A stretch of DNA of 64,000 nt from Sphingobacteriales bacterium (GTDB lineage: Bacteria > Bacteroidota > Bacteroidia > Chitinophagales > CAIOSU01): contig JAIXUD010000011.1 in assembly GCA_027483645.1 (NCBI GenBank), positions 62,001-126,000 on the forward strand. The letters are read 5' to 3'. The position numbers and the translations under genes are program-made. The notes below the pieces were generated by a model. The model had not been told where the DNA came from. It ran no database searches and worked only from the letters and a program-made list of their open reading frames with translations. Each line of letters starts with the position of its first letter. Position 1 is the stretch's first letter. Below are positions 24,668 through 32,552 of the stretch, piece by piece.

Positions 24668-26347
24668 CTATTTCTCCATCACAATCTCCAATTCCATTTC
24701 CCAGTTGGGTTTGAGGTCTACAGGATTGGGATGCATATAAATGCGCTCGGGCTGTAGTTTTTCGCCGTAGTTGCCCGTATCCCATTGGCGATTAAAGTTG
24801 GTATCCCTAATGATGCGAACGATGTAATTGCCTGGCACCAACTTTTCATACATTTTCACAAACTGCTCGCGGCCAGTTATTACTTCTCTAATGATGGCAG
24901 GGCTACCCCCACCAATACGCGCCTCCAAAATATACTGCAATGATGGCAATAAACTATCGATAGTAACGGTAATGGCACCATATTCATCGGCTTTGCGCGC
25001 ACTCAATTCAAAACCCAAACTATCGCTACCGATACCATACCTATCAATGATGGCACTATCTAAAAATGCAATTTTATAGGTAGCGCCGGGTTTCCAGGCA
25101 AAGTTCACCGCTACTTTCCGCTGGGCTGAATCCAAGAAATAAACCTGCGGCACTACCGACTTCACGGTATCTTCCAACATATACACGCGAGTGCTATCCA
25201 ATACCTGCGCTGGGCGATTCAACTCAAAAACAAATGGACTACCTAGCTCAAGTTTTTCTGAAACAATTGCTGATGGTGAAGCTCCTGCCCTTTTTCCCTT
25301 GGCTTCTGGTGTACCTTTAAATACCCCTGGCTTCCCAATCTTGTAGATAGAATCGGCTGTAAATGCGGGAGCCTTAACCGGAATAGAATCAGTAAGGGTA
25401 TCATTAGCTGTAACCAGTAAAATACTTTTTGAACCGGCATTGTACATGTACCAATGGTTGATGGTATCTCGCGTGGTGTTGTATTCAATAAATCCACCAC
25501 CAAAATTGAGCGTATCCAATAGCGGAGTAACGCTTAATGTCGTTACGGGCATAGAATAGATAAACTGGTTCAACCCGCGATTGCTGGTATTGCTTTCTAT
25601 CAATTGCAATCGCTTGGCATCCTCTTGAAACAACCGCAGCTCGAATGGTGGCGTTGGTGTATCGTTCACCGCTATCGGTTCTGGCCAGAACGCAATCCGC
25701 TCACTGGGGATGTCATACTTCAAATTGAAGTTCTCATCCTTAAGGGCGAATACTTTATAGTTACCTCCTCGCATGTTGCTTACGGTAAATGCACCAGATT
25801 TATCAGTGCGGCCAAAGTAGTAGGGCTTCTCTTTGTACACCACACTATCATTTAGCTGGTCGTAAAGCAAAATCAAAACACCTTCTGCCGGTATGCCCAA
25901 CTCAGCATCTACCACCCTGCCAGAAACAAAAAACGAATCCAGATAGTCCCCAGTACTAAAGACGTACTGAAAGTCAGGCAGCACATTGCTTTCGGTAATA
26001 TCTTTTACGGCAGCGGTTATGTTGATGGTATAAGTAGTACTGGAGCGAAGGCTATCTTTAAAAGTGATGACCAATTCCTTCCCTTTTACTACAAAATCAG
26101 GGAAAGGATCCATCGGTGGGGAAATCACAACTTGTTGCTGTGGGTTGTCCAGAATCACGTATTCGTCAAATAGTATTCTTACCTTTTTCTCCTTAAACTG
26201 CAACGATTTATTAAGCGGATACGAACCTAATACTTTAGGTGCCTCAACATCTTTTGGGCCACCTGTAGGTGCAACTTGATTAGCACAGGAAAAGAATAAT
26301 ACCGACAGTAAAAAACCGCCAAGAACGTTTAGCAGCTTCGCTTTCAT
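24668..26347 (-). CDS. Ig-like domain lipoprotein (SbsA/Big_5 type)
   Basis: A 559-residue lipoprotein with signal and lipobox (LLSVLFFSC) followed by NQVAPTGGPKDVEAP, a hallmark of a widespread Bacteroidota lipoprotein family. An SbsA Ig-like (Big_5) domain covers about residues 35-135 (KVLGSYPLNKSLQFKEKKVRILFDEYV, TTYTINI). A carboxypeptidase-regulatory-like region follows (VSGRVVDAELGIPAEGVLIL, TDKSGAFTVSNMRGGNYKVFAL) and more beta domains to the end. The family is thought to sit at the outer membrane; no ligand is known. The start overlaps the mnmG stop by 4 bp (ATGA), so it is translated with mnmG. Confidence 0.87.
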   Translation of the reverse strand: MKAKLLNVLGGFLLSVLFFSCANQVAPTGGPKDVEAPKVLGSYPLNKSLQFKEKKVRILFDEYVILDNPQQQVVISPPMDPFPDFVVKGKELVITFKDSLRSSTTYTINITAAVKDITESNVLPDFQYVFSTGDYLDSFFVSGRVVDAELGIPAEGVLILLYDQLNDSVVYKEKPYYFGRTDKSGAFTVSNMRGGNYKVFALKDENFNLKYDIPSERIAFWPEPIAVNDTPTPPFELRLFQEDAKRLQLIESNTSNRGLNQFIYSMPVTTLSVTPLLDTLNFGGGFIEYNTTRDTINHWYMYNAGSKSILLVTANDTLTDSIPVKAPAFTADSIYKIGKPGVFKGTPEAKGKRAGASPSAIVSEKLELGSPFVFELNRPAQVLDSTRVYMLEDTVKSVVPQVYFLDSAQRKVAVNFAWKPGATYKIAFLDSAIIDRYGIGSDSLGFELSARKADEYGAITVTIDSLLPSLQYILEARIGGGSPAIIREVITGREQFVKMYEKLVPGNYIVRIIRDTNFNRQWDTGNYGEKLQPERIYMHPNPVDLKPNWEMELEIVMEK

Positions 26348-28206
26348 CGGCCCATATAAACCATAAGTACGGAAATGTCAGAAGGCGAAACCCCACTGAT
26401 TCGGCTGGCTTGACCTAACGTAGAAGGTTTCACTTTCGTAAGCTTTTGACGAGCCTCTATAGAAAGCGAGGTAATTTTATTGAAATCGAAGTTATCGATG
26501 ATTCTAAACTCATCCAGCTTCCCGATTTTTTCGGCCATCTGATGCTCCTTCTCAATATAGCCCTCATACTTCATCGCTATCTCAGCCTGCTCTACAAACT
26601 CATTATCGAACTGGTTTAAGTATTCGTTGAGTTCGGGCAGCTGACGGCGCAACATCGGTAAGTCAATTTGCGGACGACTTAATAACGCCAACAGCTTCGT
26701 TTTTTGCGAAACCGTTGCGGTACCTTGCTCTTCTAACAATGGGTTAACCAAATCAGCGGATACACCTTCGTTCTTAAAGTACTTTTGTATCTCCGCAGCA
26801 ATGCGCACCTTATCCTTTACTCGCTCCAATCTGGCATCGCTAGCAAGCCCTAGTTTGTGACCCAACGGTGTCAACCTTATATCTGCATTATCCTGACGCA
26901 GCAAAATACGATACTCCGCCCGCGAAGTAAACATGCGGTATGGCTCGTCGGTACCTTTGGTTATCAGGTCGTCAATTAGCACCCCAATATAACCTTCCGC
27001 TCTGCCTATAATTAACGGCGACTCTTCCCTTACGGCAAGATGTGCATTGATACCAGCCATCAACCCTTGACATGCCGCTTCTTCATAGCCAGTGGTACCG
27101 TTGATTTGTCCTGCGAAGAACAGGTTCTTTACCAACTTGGTTTCTAAAGTATGGGTTAACTGTGTTGGTGGGAAGTAATCATACTCTATCGCATAGCCCG
27201 GGCGGAACATCCGCACATTCTCAAAACCTTCAATCTTACGGATGGCTTTGTATTGTACTTCTTCGGGCAATGAAGTAGAGAATCCATTTACGTACATCTC
27301 CACTGTATCCCATCCTTCAGGCTCTACAAATATCTGGTGACGGTCTTTATCGGCAAAGCGGTTTACTTTATCTTCTACCGATGGGCAATAGCGTGGGCCT
27401 AAACCTTGTATACGACCCGTAAACATAGGGCTCTTATCAAAACCCTCTTTTAATATCTCGTGTACCTCAAGGTTCGTATAGGTAATATGACAAGGCCGTT
27501 GCTTTAGTAACTTTGGCGTTTCGGTATACGAAAACTTCTCAGGGTTCTCGTCGCCGGGCTGCTCTTCCATTTTGGTATAGTCCAAACTGCGACCATCAAT
27601 GCGTGGTGGCGTACCGGTTTTCATCCTTCCAGATTCGAAACCAAGTTCTACCAACTGCTCCGTAATGCCTGTTGCTGCTTTCTCGGCAGCGCGACCCCCG
27701 CCAAACTGTTTCTCTCCTACGTGAATAATGCCATTCAAAAACGTACCATTAGTAAGCACTACAGATTTGCCTTTAATATCCAAGCCCATCCCTGTGCGTA
27801 CCCCTATCGCTCGGCCATCCTTAATCAAGAGACCGCTTACCATATCTTGCCAAAAGTCTAGGTTTGGGGTTTGCTCCAACATCATGCGCCACTCAGCTGC
27901 GAACAACATCCTGTCGCTTTGTGCCCTTGGGCTCCACATTGCAGGGCCTTTAGATTTATTGAGCATGCGGAATTGGATCATGGTCTTATCCGTCACAATT
28001 CCTGAGTATCCGCCAAGAGCATCTACTTCGCGTACTATCTGACCTTTTGCTACACCACCCATTGCTGGGTTGCAACTCATCTGTGCAATGGTGTTCATGT
28101 TCATGGTAACCAACAGCACGCGCGAACCCAAATTGGCCGAACTGGCAGCCGCCTCACAACCGGCATGACCGGCACCAACCACTATCACATCATATTCTGG
28201 AAACAT
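26344..28206 (-). CDS. mnmG: tRNA uridine-5-carboxymethylaminomethyl modification enzyme
   Basis: A 620-residue FAD- and NADH-dependent enzyme. With MnmE it installs cmnm5U at the wobble position of certain tRNAs. Signatures: VIVVGAGHAGCEAA (FAD-binding), NTIAQMSCNPAMGGVAKG, MWSPRAQSDR, PGYAIEYDYFPP, and FFAGQINGTTGYEEAA near residue 370, with the C-terminal YIEKEHQMAEK...IEARQKLTKVKP. Length is typical (about 620). No mnmE gene is in the window. The start lies just downstream of two parS sites, and historically this gene (gidA) is often close to the replication origin. Confidence 0.97.
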   Translation of the reverse strand: MFPEYDVIVVGAGHAGCEAAASSANLGSRVLLVTMNMNTIAQMSCNPAMGGVAKGQIVREVDALGGYSGIVTDKTMIQFRMLNKSKGPAMWSPRAQSDRMLFAAEWRMMLEQTPNLDFWQDMVSGLLIKDGRAIGVRTGMGLDIKGKSVVLTNGTFLNGIIHVGEKQFGGGRAAEKAATGITEQLVELGFESGRMKTGTPPRIDGRSLDYTKMEEQPGDENPEKFSYTETPKLLKQRPCHITYTNLEVHEILKEGFDKSPMFTGRIQGLGPRYCPSVEDKVNRFADKDRHQIFVEPEGWDTVEMYVNGFSTSLPEEVQYKAIRKIEGFENVRMFRPGYAIEYDYFPPTQLTHTLETKLVKNLFFAGQINGTTGYEEAACQGLMAGINAHLAVREESPLIIGRAEGYIGVLIDDLITKGTDEPYRMFTSRAEYRILLRQDNADIRLTPLGHKLGLASDARLERVKDKVRIAAEIQKYFKNEGVSADLVNPLLEEQGTATVSQKTKLLALLSRPQIDLPMLRRQLPELNEYLNQFDNEFVEQAEIAMKYEGYIEKEHQMAEKIGKLDEFRIIDNFDFNKITSLSIEARQKLTKVKPSTLGQASRISGVSPSDISVLMVYMGR

Positions 28207-28253
28207 CTTGTTGTCGTATTCAATTTTCCTTAAAAATCGTTTCTATGCTCCAA

Positions 28254-28269
28254 TGTTCCACGTGGAACA
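28254..28269. other. parS centromere-like site 1
   Basis: TGTTCCACGTGGAACA is a perfect 16-bp palindrome matching the ParB (Spo0J) binding consensus TGTTnCACGTGnAACA. It lies in the 98-bp gap between ybeY and mnmG, 63 bp from site 2. Function in ParABS segregation is inferred from the known consensus. Confidence 0.88.
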
Positions 28270-28304
28270 TCAAAAAATATTAAAAACGACAATATTTCAA
28301 AATT

Positions 28305-28754
28305 CTAGCCTTCAATTGTTCCACGTGGAACAATAAGCGTTTCAAACAGCACAAGTGCTTGATTCTCAGCCAGTCGCATTGCCTTTTGATCCTCTTTTTT
28401 CTTATCCCGAAGGCCTAATAGATGCAATATTCCGTGAATCATGACCCTACGTAGCTCCTGTTCAAAAGAAACGGCGTTTAAATCGGCGTTTTCTTGCACC
28501 CTATCAACACTAATGAAAATATCCCCGGCAATAATTTTGCCTTCGGTATAGTCGAAAGTGATGATGTCGGTATAATAATCGTGTTTGAGGTGCTCTTGGT
28601 TCATTTCCAGCAAATATTCATCGCTGCAAAAAACATAGGCAACATTGCCGAGGGCCATCTGTTTTTCCTCCACTACAATCTTAATCCATTGCTTGAGCAA
28701 TCGAGATTGTTGCAATCGAAAGGAAACGGATTCTTTGTGGAAGGTAACGGGCAC
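28305..28754 (-). CDS. ybeY: Endoribonuclease YbeY
   Basis: A 149-residue metalloenzyme of 16S rRNA maturation and ribosome quality control. The family region VFCSDEYLLEMNQEHLKHDYYTDIITFDY and GDIFISVDRVQENA is clear. The metal motif reads HGILHLLGLRD, with two histidines and an aspartate where many bacteria have the third histidine (HxxxHxxxxxH). I believe this Asp is common in Bacteroidota orthologues, so activity is not excluded. The start is a GTG at 28752-28754, 17 bp after the RsbW-like gene. The last codons contain a parS site. Confidence 0.92.
   Translation of the reverse strand: MPVTFHKESVSFRLQQSRLLKQWIKIVVEEKQMALGNVAYVFCSDEYLLEMNQEHLKHDYYTDIITFDYTEGKIIAGDIFISVDRVQENADLNAVSFEQELRRVMIHGILHLLGLRDKKKEDQKAMRLAENQALVLFETLIVPRGTIEG
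28317..28332. other. parS centromere-like site 2, inside the ybeY end
   Basis: Second perfect TGTTCCACGTGGAACA palindrome. It lies within the ybeY reading frame and encodes part of its C-terminal IVPRGTIEG. Confidence 0.88.
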
Positions 28755-29188: not shown

Positions 29189-29217
29189 CAAAGATATATA
29201 ATTTTCCCAATCACAAA
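29189..29217 (-). promoter_or_regulatory. Promoter of the RsbW-like gene
   Basis: -7 box TATCTTTG at 29189-29196 and -33 TTTG at 29214-29217 with 17 bp between. The box ends 12 nt before the ATG. It overlaps the 3' end of the DUF4175 gene, so the kinase can be expressed separately. Confidence 0.65.
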
Positions 29218-32200
29218 TTGATATTCTTGAAATAACTTTCTACCAAATTTTTATAGTAAGGCTTCAAAGATGGCGGAAGCGTTTTATACAGTTGTATTTC
29301 AGCCTCGCGTTTCTTCAAATAATCCTCTAAAGAAGGTGGCATTTTTGGCTGAATATTCACCGCAGTTTCTGCTTCTCGCTTGTTATCAGTCTCCCTTTCG
29401 CGCATTGCGGTCTCTGCTTCCAGCAATTTGGTCATAATTTCTTGCTGGCGCCTCATCATCTCGCTCGTAATTTGCTTGTTTACTAACTCGGTTTCTGTCT
29501 TATTCATTTCGTCCTGCAGCTTCTTCAATTCGTCTTGCGCCGCCTTGTTTCCACCTTGAGCGTCTATCATCCCTTGTATCGCATCCCGAATCATCTTTTG
29601 CTGGGCAGCAGCCTTGGCCATCTCTTGGCTCATGCCACCCTGGCCCGGTTTATCTCCAGGCTTATCACCCGGTTTCATGCCTGGCTTATTACCCATTTCC
29701 TTCTGCATCTTGTCCAGTTGGTCATTCAACTGTTTCTGCATATCGCTCATGCTCATACTAGGCTTCTTACCTTGGCCAGGCTTCTTGCAGTTGGCGTTAC
29801 CTGGTTTCATTTCTGCCATTTGTTGTTGCATTTGCTGCAATACCTCATCAAACATCAACGCCAAGTTGTTAAAGCCCGTCATCACATACTGTTGGTTGGT
29901 GGCTGCATAGGTCTTATCTCGCTGCTCCAGCCTTTGTATGCCATTGGCCATATTCTTGTTAATGTTGCGCATCTCGTCGGTTACGAAGCCCTCAATTTGC
30001 GACACACGCTTTGCAAGGGCATATAGGCTATCCTCTACCATTTCGGCATCATCCTTTAGCTTCTTCTGCTTTTGTACCAATGACACATAGGCAGGGTCGT
30101 TAATGTTCACCTTCTTCATGTCAGCCATCAGCTCCTCTTGGTCGAATGATAGCTTCAGCAAATTGTCAAGCAACTGCCGCAGGGCTTGCATGTCCTCTTC
30201 CATTTGTTCTTGTTCCTGCTCCTGCTGCATCGCCGCCATACTTTCGCTCATTTCCTTCATCTTCTGCGCGGCGTTCTTCTGGTTTTGGCTGGCCTTCTTG
30301 TTTTTACTACCGTCAATGTTTTCTTTAGCTTGGTCCATCTCTTGGTCAGCATCCCTCATATCTTGATCCATCTCGTCAAGTGGCATTTCGCCACCCAACT
30401 CCTCGTTCAGCTTATCTAAGGCAGCCATATCTTCCTTAACCTTATCAAACTCTTTGTTCAACTCTTCCTGTTTCTTGGCCAGTTCCTCTTTTTGCTTTCC
30501 GTCTGCATTTTCGGTTTGCTTAGCCAATTCCTCTTGTTGTTTAGCTAACTCATCTAGCTTCTTGATGGTCTCATCCATCTTTTGCTCCATCTCCAACTGT
30601 TTGAACAGCGATAGCATCCGGTCTAACTCTTTCTCCAGTTGCTCATCGGTCATCTCAAACTTCTCCAACTCGTTCATCATGTCCTTCTTGCTCATCTCGT
30701 CCATCATCTTGTCGAGCTTGTCAAAAAGTTCTTTCAATTCTTCGTTCAATACTTCATCAAACAACTTCTCCAGTTGCTGTTGTTTCTGTACTACTTCAGG
30801 GCTAAATTCTTTATAATCATTCTGCTTCTCTTGGTTTTTGCTAAAATCTTCCTTAATCTGCTCTAAGTTCTGTTGCAGCTGGTTTTGCTTCTGCATCATA
30901 TCCTCAATGGACTTCTTGTCCTCCCAGCTAAGATTCTTCTTATCAATCATCTTATCCTTCAGGTCTGTAATCTCCTTCTGCAGTTCTTGCGCCTGTTTCA
31001 TGGAGGTTTCCATCATCTTCTTCAAGTCATCATTGTTCTGTGCAACCAGTTCATCCAACTGGTCAACCGTAGGCATCTCCAGTTTCATCATTGGCGTGCG
31101 GCCACTCTTGCTGCCGTTGATGCCGTCGTTGTCCCAAACTTCGAAGTAATAGGTAACATTATCACCAGGTTTCAGGCCTAGTGCCTTCATGTCCCAATAA
31201 TGATTGAACGGACTAAGGGTAGAATTCTTGTTGAAGGCAATTGGCAGAATCGTCCACTTGTCATCGTTTCCTTGACCAATCTTAAACTTCATAGTAACTG
31301 CGCGGATACCATAATCATCAGAAGCCTCGCCTGTAAAGTATCTGTAACTGGTATTATCAACGCTATCCTGAAACTCCTGTACCGAAATAGATGGGTGTTG
31401 GTCAGGCGTAACGTTGATGGTATACGTAATAGAATCGGCATTCGGAAGGTTGGTACCAGATACCTTCATCGTGTAAACAGTACTTTGCTTCAAAACCTTG
31501 GTAAACACAAAGTGATCCTTTTGGCGGTTGCTCGCTGGCAACATGGTATCACCAAGGTACATGGCAATATCACTAGCTGATTTACCATTAAAGTCCCAAA
31601 TGATTTTGGTGCCTTCTGGTACCGTTATATCGCCAGTATTTGCCAACACTTCATCGGTACGGCCGATATAGGTTGGGTAATCTAGGGCCACATTAAAACC
31701 TACTATCATTGGCTTAGGTGAAACTTCCAATTCATAATCCTTTGAATCGAAACCTGCAGCACTAAAATTGAAATCAAAACTCTTCTGCAAATTGAAGAAC
31801 TTGTAAACGAACTCGCCGCTTTTGTCCTTCTGCATTTTATAGGTATAGCCCCCCTGGTTAATGCTTACCTCATTGGGCAAGGCATCACCTTCCACCACCA
31901 TGCGCACTTCGTAATCAGAGTATTGCAGGGCTTTCAGTTTGTCATTAACTACCTTAAACTTAAATGGCGCGGGTTTTTCAAAACTGGTACCATTGTATAA
32001 CAAGCGCGTAGTACCATCAGTAATAATACTAGGAGCGGCAAAGAGAATAACTACCAATGCCAAAATAGGAACTGCCAAATACTTAAGGTATTTGCGGTTG
32101 TTGCGCAAATCGATAGCAGTCGAAAACGGAACCGGCTTAAGCGTTTCAATCTTTTGGCTGATACTCGCATTGATTAGACTGGCATCGGTAATAGATTCTG

Positions 32201-32552
32201 ACTGCTTCTTGAGTTGGAGAATGTTGAGCAGCTTATCCTCCACATTGGTAAAGTGGGTGCCAATAATTTTGGCAGCTTGCTCATGGCTAATAACCTTGCC
32301 CAACCGAGCATAACTAAGTGCCGGTAACACTACCAACCGGAAAGCCACAAAACCGGCAAACCCCAGATAACCGAAGAACAATATCTTACGGCCTATAGTT
32401 GGCAAAAACAAATAGAATTCTAAAAACGTAACGGCTAGAAACAATGCTAGTAGCAGGGCCGATGTATAAATCAGTCCACGCAAAAGTTGATTGAGATAAT
32501 ACTTTCGTATAAACTCATCCAACCGGGCTATCAGCAAATCATAATTGTTCAT
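29211..32552 (-). CDS. DUF4175 family membrane protein, long coiled-coil
   Basis: A 1113-residue protein. Transmembrane segments lie near residues 20-48, 52-75 and 155-175, then a beta-rich periplasmic part (about 190-490). The C-terminal half (about 500-960) is an unusually Gln/Lys/Glu/Met-rich coiled-coil (MMQKQNQLQQNLEQIKEDF and similar). A short Pro/Gly-rich linker with GMKPGDKPGDKPGQGG follows, then a final helical part. This is the DUF4175 family, Bacteroidota-specific and of unknown function. Its place next to the RsbW-like kinase, ybeY and mnmG is typical. The antisense strand carries long stop-free frames because of the biased composition; they are not genes. Confidence 0.92.
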   Translation of the reverse strand: MNNYDLLIARLDEFIRKYYLNQLLRGLIYTSALLLALFLAVTFLEFYLFLPTIGRKILFFGYLGFAGFVAFRLVVLPALSYARLGKVISHEQAAKIIGTHFTNVEDKLLNILQLKKQSESITDASLINASISQKIETLKPVPFSTAIDLRNNRKYLKYLAVPILALVVILFAAPSIITDGTTRLLYNGTSFEKPAPFKFKVVNDKLKALQYSDYEVRMVVEGDALPNEVSINQGGYTYKMQKDKSGEFVYKFFNLQKSFDFNFSAAGFDSKDYELEVSPKPMIVGFNVALDYPTYIGRTDEVLANTGDITVPEGTKIIWDFNGKSASDIAMYLGDTMLPASNRQKDHFVFTKVLKQSTVYTMKVSGTNLPNADSITYTINVTPDQHPSISVQEFQDSVDNTSYRYFTGEASDDYGIRAVTMKFKIGQGNDDKWTILPIAFNKNSTLSPFNHYWDMKALGLKPGDNVTYYFEVWDNDGINGSKSGRTPMMKLEMPTVDQLDELVAQNNDDLKKMMETSMKQAQELQKEITDLKDKMIDKKNLSWEDKKSIEDMMQKQNQLQQNLEQIKEDFSKNQEKQNDYKEFSPEVVQKQQQLEKLFDEVLNEELKELFDKLDKMMDEMSKKDMMNELEKFEMTDEQLEKELDRMLSLFKQLEMEQKMDETIKKLDELAKQQEELAKQTENADGKQKEELAKKQEELNKEFDKVKEDMAALDKLNEELGGEMPLDEMDQDMRDADQEMDQAKENIDGSKNKKASQNQKNAAQKMKEMSESMAAMQQEQEQEQMEEDMQALRQLLDNLLKLSFDQEELMADMKKVNINDPAYVSLVQKQKKLKDDAEMVEDSLYALAKRVSQIEGFVTDEMRNINKNMANGIQRLEQRDKTYAATNQQYVMTGFNNLALMFDEVLQQMQQQMAEMKPGNANCKKPGQGKKPSMSMSDMQKQLNDQLDKMQKEMGNKPGMKPGDKPGDKPGQGGMSQEMAKAAAQQKMIRDAIQGMIDAQGGNKAAQDELKKLQDEMNKTETELVNKQITSEMMRRQQEIMTKLLEAETAMRERETDNKREAETAVNIQPKMPPSLEDYLKKREAEIQLYKTLPPSLKPYYKNLVESYFKNINL

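Follow-up and report, generated by a model that had tools for sequence, protein, structure and literature searches.

Organisation of the ybeY-mnmG locus

The window analysed here, the whole stretch of 64,000 nucleotides, corresponds to C4:62001-126000 of a draft assembly of 4,270,577 bases in 23 contigs. Within it, two genes follow one another on the minus strand, ybeY first and then, after a short gap, mnmG (Table 1). The identification of YbeY comes both from a match to TIGR00043 above the cut-off and from the presence of an H-x3-H-type metal motif, HGILHLLG. Two genes upstream of ybeY, positions 29211-32552 encode a protein of 1113 aa, a long part of which is rich in K/E/Q/M; it coincides with a local dip in GC skew.

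Table 1. Features of the ybeY-mnmG junction, in window coordinates
Feature	Position	Strand	Evidence and remarks
mnmG (gidA)	26344..28206	-	TIGR00136, 829 bits
ybeY-mnmG intergenic region	28207..28304	.	98 bp, 71% A+T (base composition)
parS copy 1	28254..28269	.	TGTTCCACGTGGAACA; intergenic, 47 nt before mnmG ATG; kept in same-genus G002-G005
ybeY, rRNA maturation RNase	28305..28754	-	149 aa, GTG start as listed; TIGR00043, 97 bits, cut-off 45
ybeY last codons, IVPRGTIEG and stop	28305..28334	-	reading frame; VPRGT written by parS copy 2
parS copy 2	28317..28332	.	TGTTCCACGTGGAACA; within ybeY reading frame; same frame in G003, G004 (one mismatch), G005

The bacterial parS site is the DNA tag by which newly copied chromosomes are pulled apart. 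At the ybeY-mnmG junction, the 16-bp palindrome TGTTCCACGTGGAACA, a match to the parS consensus TGTTYCACGTGRAACA, occurs in two exact copies whose starts are 63 bp apart, with 47 bp in between, just as the initial annotation of this DNA had described them. These are the only exact copies in the whole 4.27 Mb assembly, compared with some 0.001 per genome expected from base composition, and a search of the same assembly at up to two mismatches found no further copy. In other words, the sites are few and clustered, and the genome-wide scatter that would have spoken against a centromere is absent.

The minus-strand end of ybeY reads ATT GTT CCA CGT GGA ACA ATT GAA GGC TAG. It had been proposed that the second palindrome encodes the whole nine-residue C-terminus in the ybeY frame. 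The in-frame, C-terminal overlap stands; the palindrome itself, however, writes only VPRGT and, ahead of it, a single base of the Ile codon, and the final IEG lies outside the site.

The same junction carries parS in four same-genus genomes (G002-G005). In G003 and G005 there are two exact copies 59 bp apart in the same arrangement, and G004 pairs an exact copy with one that has a single mismatch, again in the same arrangement; in these three genomes YbeY also ends in VPRGT. In G002, the two exact copies are 58 bp apart and lie just downstream of the ybeY match. At ybeY residues that are identical between the window's genome (G000) and G003-G005, the codons agree in 58-62% of cases beyond the site, compared with 4-5 of 5 within it, the latter being a small sample of five codons.

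The ParA and ParB partners

The genome also contains the proteins that such a site requires. Adjacent parA and parB genes are found on contig C14, followed by a gene for a membrane protein that we take to be DUF5683-like, and then by dapB. The encoded ParB scores 184 bits against TIGR00180 (cut-off 58) and aligns to Caulobacter ParB (6t1f/7bm8) at 6.6e-50. Read off the 6t1f alignment, it has R at position 173 and G at 201, the parS-type specificity residues, together with Y at 179, R at 184 and N for S172 (numbering of PMC7383237). R173 and G201 are conserved in all parS-binding ParB orthologs and decide between the parS and Noc sites (PMC7383237). A genome devoid of parA and parB, which had been named as grounds for abandoning the centromere, is thus not what is found. 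Taken together, the restriction of the palindrome to two genomic copies, the parA-parB operon and the R173/G201 pair in ParB argue that the two palindromes form the chromosomal parS centromere.

A second, weak ParB-like protein (C17:57490-57765, L004) adjoins a gene resembling a DNA cytosine methyltransferase, and is probably part of another, mobile or defence element.

Position of parS across the Bacteroidia

Beyond the genus, exact TGTTYCACGTGRAACA is present in 194 of 296 sampled Bacteroidia genomes, usually in one to three copies, against 2 of 296 for the reversed-motif control. The other 102 genomes are without an exact copy; as G001 and G108 illustrate, a site at mnmG with one mismatch can take its place. 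In 11 genomes, no site of up to one mismatch is farther than ~1.3 kb from mnmG, a single stray in G286 apart; the sites occur 5' of the gene and, in many cases, immediately beyond its 3' end as well. The 80 nearest MnmG loci give the same picture: leaving aside the Saprospirales relatives, the majority have sites 20-170 nt upstream of mnmG. There are other families in which several kb, or even tens of kb, separate the sites from ybeY, such that the anchoring at mnmG is general but not universal.

Further variations in number and placement were seen. In many Flavobacteriia, L039, L044, L059, L068-L077 and L085 among them, a second parS is found ~1860-1990 nt after the mnmG start, just past the stop codon, and centromere sites thus flank mnmG on both sides. 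G039 contains an array of 12 exact parS (C24:13202 onward, the first ones listed ~99 bp apart), and L042 some ten near-exact copies upstream of mnmG.

What holds the site at mnmG is a matter on which two readings can be weighed. ParB loading might, besides its part in partition, repress or time the transcription of mnmG (and ybeY), and this would account for the persistence of the site at the mnmG leader. Both the short distance from the first palindrome to the mnmG start and the frequency of parS upstream of mnmG in the class speak for such a role. The membership of mnmG (gidA) in the ancestral origin gene group (PMC2099444) nevertheless offers a simpler reason for the anchor, and regulation by ParB appears doubtful. 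Livny and colleagues may already have described the anchor in part, in their survey of parS from 2007.

Relation to the replication origin

The initial annotation had suggested that this centromere is close to the replication origin. In four of five closed Bacteroidia genomes, the GC-skew minimum indeed lies at or near parS/mnmG. As sampled, the GC skew turns from negative to positive at 2.54-2.70 Mb in G181 (parS at 2.567 Mb), at 3.49-3.88 Mb in G258 (parS at 3.639 Mb) and at 1.28-1.77 Mb in G286 (parS at 1.663 Mb); G260 has a flat curve between ~2.5 and 2.98 Mb, a stretch that includes parS (2.764 Mb) and is compatible with an origin there. The fifth genome, G108, belongs to the window's own order and has only a one-mismatch site; its skew minimum, at 2.85-3.1 Mb as against 3.70 Mb for mnmG, is 0.6-0.8 Mb away, a minimum that is poorly placed, the skew being weak and the sampling interval 250 kb. 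On the window's own contig, C4 (178.6 kb), the GC skew is too weak to place an origin, and it was dropped as a marker. The ybeY-mnmG locus has no DnaA-box cluster, only scattered one-mismatch boxes.

It might therefore be argued that the parS is genuine but that the locus is not near the origin in this organism, as the weak skew of C4 and the displacement in the same-order G108 would suggest. Set against the agreement of the four other closed genomes with an origin at or near mnmG, and against the weakness of the G108 minimum, this is an unlikely reading. The proposal of an origin-proximal centromere finds its backing in the relatives, with G108 the exception; for the window's own organism, we infer origin proximity.

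In all five closed genomes (G181, G258, G260, G286 and G108), dnaA and parB are far from parS/mnmG and, in most, far from the skew minimum too; in G258, for example, dnaA is at 1.98 Mb and parB at 1.97 Mb. The distance of dnaA from parS agrees with a study of gut bacteria, including Bacteroidetes, according to which the origin does not systematically track dnaA (PMC10197239). In the gut Bacteroidetes of the OMM12 set, the same study describes parS clusters as marking the skew origin (PMC10197239), much as in four of the five closed genomes above.

The C-terminus of YbeY

In the window, as in G003-G005, parS copy 2 is read as the end of a protein. The extent of this overlap was assessed in ybeY regions from 110 of the 296 genomes, which are the best-scoring matches of the class search, chosen by model score and without looking at parS. 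mnmG adjoins ybeY in 60 of the 110 loci, and 39 of these 60 have a site of up to one mismatch in the ybeY tail or between it and mnmG. A site forms part of the YbeY coding sequence in 14 of the 110, and a further 15 have one that begins no more than 15 bases from the ybeY stop codon; the reversed-motif control gave none in the 110 loci. A second set, the loci nearest in MnmG, has coding overlap in 22 of 59.

Where the site is translated, it is read in two frames, giving FHV[EK] at 30 sites and V[PS]R[GE]T at 8; the third frame, which would give CSTWN or a premature TGA, is used by none of the sites in the ybeY tail sets. All 48 tails with either peptide have parS beneath them (reversed-motif control 0), and none of the 48 bears the peptide without the DNA site. 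Tails with a site are also longer, at a median of 37 residues from the metal motif compared with 33, a difference whose P value takes no account of relatedness. In two loci, L123 (G255) and L273 (G022), a single YbeY tail contains two parS, one in each frame, so that FHV.. is followed by VSRET or VPRGT.

The relatives show every state: the site after the stop codon, in one frame, in the other, in both, and the gene moved away. Thus, in many relatives the site directly follows the ybeY stop codon and there is no tail, and in the same-family G006 a single parS lies two bases past the stop. In G001, of the same family, two one-mismatch sites are found ahead of mnmG while ybeY is ~207 kb away; this relocated YbeY, separated from both mnmG and parS, ends ...ENECLSML, without the added tail. 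On a tree of the YbeY core, tail state changes at least 15 times, a count that is only a rough sign of recurrence because the protein is short and the tree a quick one.

These comparisons bear on whether the tail peptide is selected for the function of YbeY, the parS match in its frame being secondary. In favour of this, many species have the peptide in frame and ending at or close to the C-terminus, with FHVE[QH] common in Flavobacteriaceae. Yet the same DNA gives two unrelated peptides, which L123 and L273 combine in a single tail; a site without a tail is frequent among relatives; the peptide does not occur apart from the site; and ybeY, once relocated, lacks it. A functional tail is therefore very unlikely. 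Rather, the initial suggestion that a DNA-binding site, and not protein function, shapes the end of YbeY is supported, as is the associated prediction that the tail would occur only where parS is present. The most likely reading of the sequences compared is that the DNA site is fixed and the YbeY tail its by-product, without a function of its own. In a narrow search of the literature, we found no earlier mention of this overlap.

Barely tenable, finally, is the notion that the pair is an mRNA element, a 16-bp stem between ybeY and mnmG acting in transcription, decay or translation: the ybeY-mnmG transcript (28235-28350, minus strand) does fold into such a stem through both sites (-39.5 kcal/mol, z -6.0), but any pair of identical palindromes would fold likewise, an Rfam search of the locus gave no match, the sequence is the exact parS consensus with a matching ParB in the genome, and, since 26 of the 39 class-level loci that carry a site have a single one, the stem cannot be a conserved feature, such that an RNA hairpin was rejected as the function.

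A probable centromere at the end of a gene

The overall picture is that of a chromosomal parS centromere at the ybeY-mnmG junction, anchored at mnmG class-wide and read into the YbeY tail as a by-product, a reading to which we attach a probability of roughly 0.9. The identity of the site, its uniqueness in the genome, its partner genes, its position across the class and the dependence of the tail upon it are observations of this analysis; binding and spreading of ParB at the site are what the sequences lead one to expect. In the mechanism that we propose, ParB, encoded elsewhere in the parA-parB-DUF5683-dapB cluster, would load on both palindromes and spread as a clamp across the ybeY-mnmG neighbourhood, after which ParA would move the duplicated region apart. 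Across the Bacteroidia, the site is anchored on the 5' side of mnmG, often a few bases from the ybeY stop codon, where gain or loss of a stop codon beside parS could turn the site into ybeY codons, repeatedly and in two frames. The site would be readable as a YbeY tail because the DNA is held constant while the C-terminus past the conserved core is free.

In its components, the system resembles the chromosomal ParABS of the Bacillus, Pseudomonas and Caulobacter type with TGTTYCACGTGRAACA, having the identical 16-bp palindrome, a ParB with R173/G201, parA beside parB, and few, clustered sites. It differs from that type in the large distance of both parAB and dnaA from parS, as seen in the closed Bacteroidia genomes examined, and in that the sites are anchored at mnmG, one of them forming stop-proximal codons of ybeY. 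A centromere site that doubles as coding sequence has a precedent in spo0J of Bacillus subtilis, where parS lies inside an open reading frame. Unlike the spo0J site, the overlap described here occupies the very C-terminal end of a single gene and recurs across a class in two frames, which argues that the peptide follows the DNA. Neither the anchor at mnmG nor the YbeY tail is reported for the OMM12 Bacteroidetes in the available portion of that work (PMC10197239).

More tentatively, a Bacteroidia centromere fixed between the ybeY stop codon and the mnmG leader may not only dictate the C-terminus of a conserved RNase in whichever frame is open, but, through the loading of ParB, could also couple partition to the expression of mnmG and ybeY, and hence to tRNA modification and ribosome maturation; we regard this wider proposal as possible rather than probable. 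As a natural example, the locus shows cleanly the end of a conserved protein being set by a DNA-binding site rather than by what the protein does. There is a practical side, too: for Bacteroidota draft genomes, in which neither dnaA nor parAB marks the origin, parS at mnmG could serve as an origin marker, as it does in most of the closed genomes checked.
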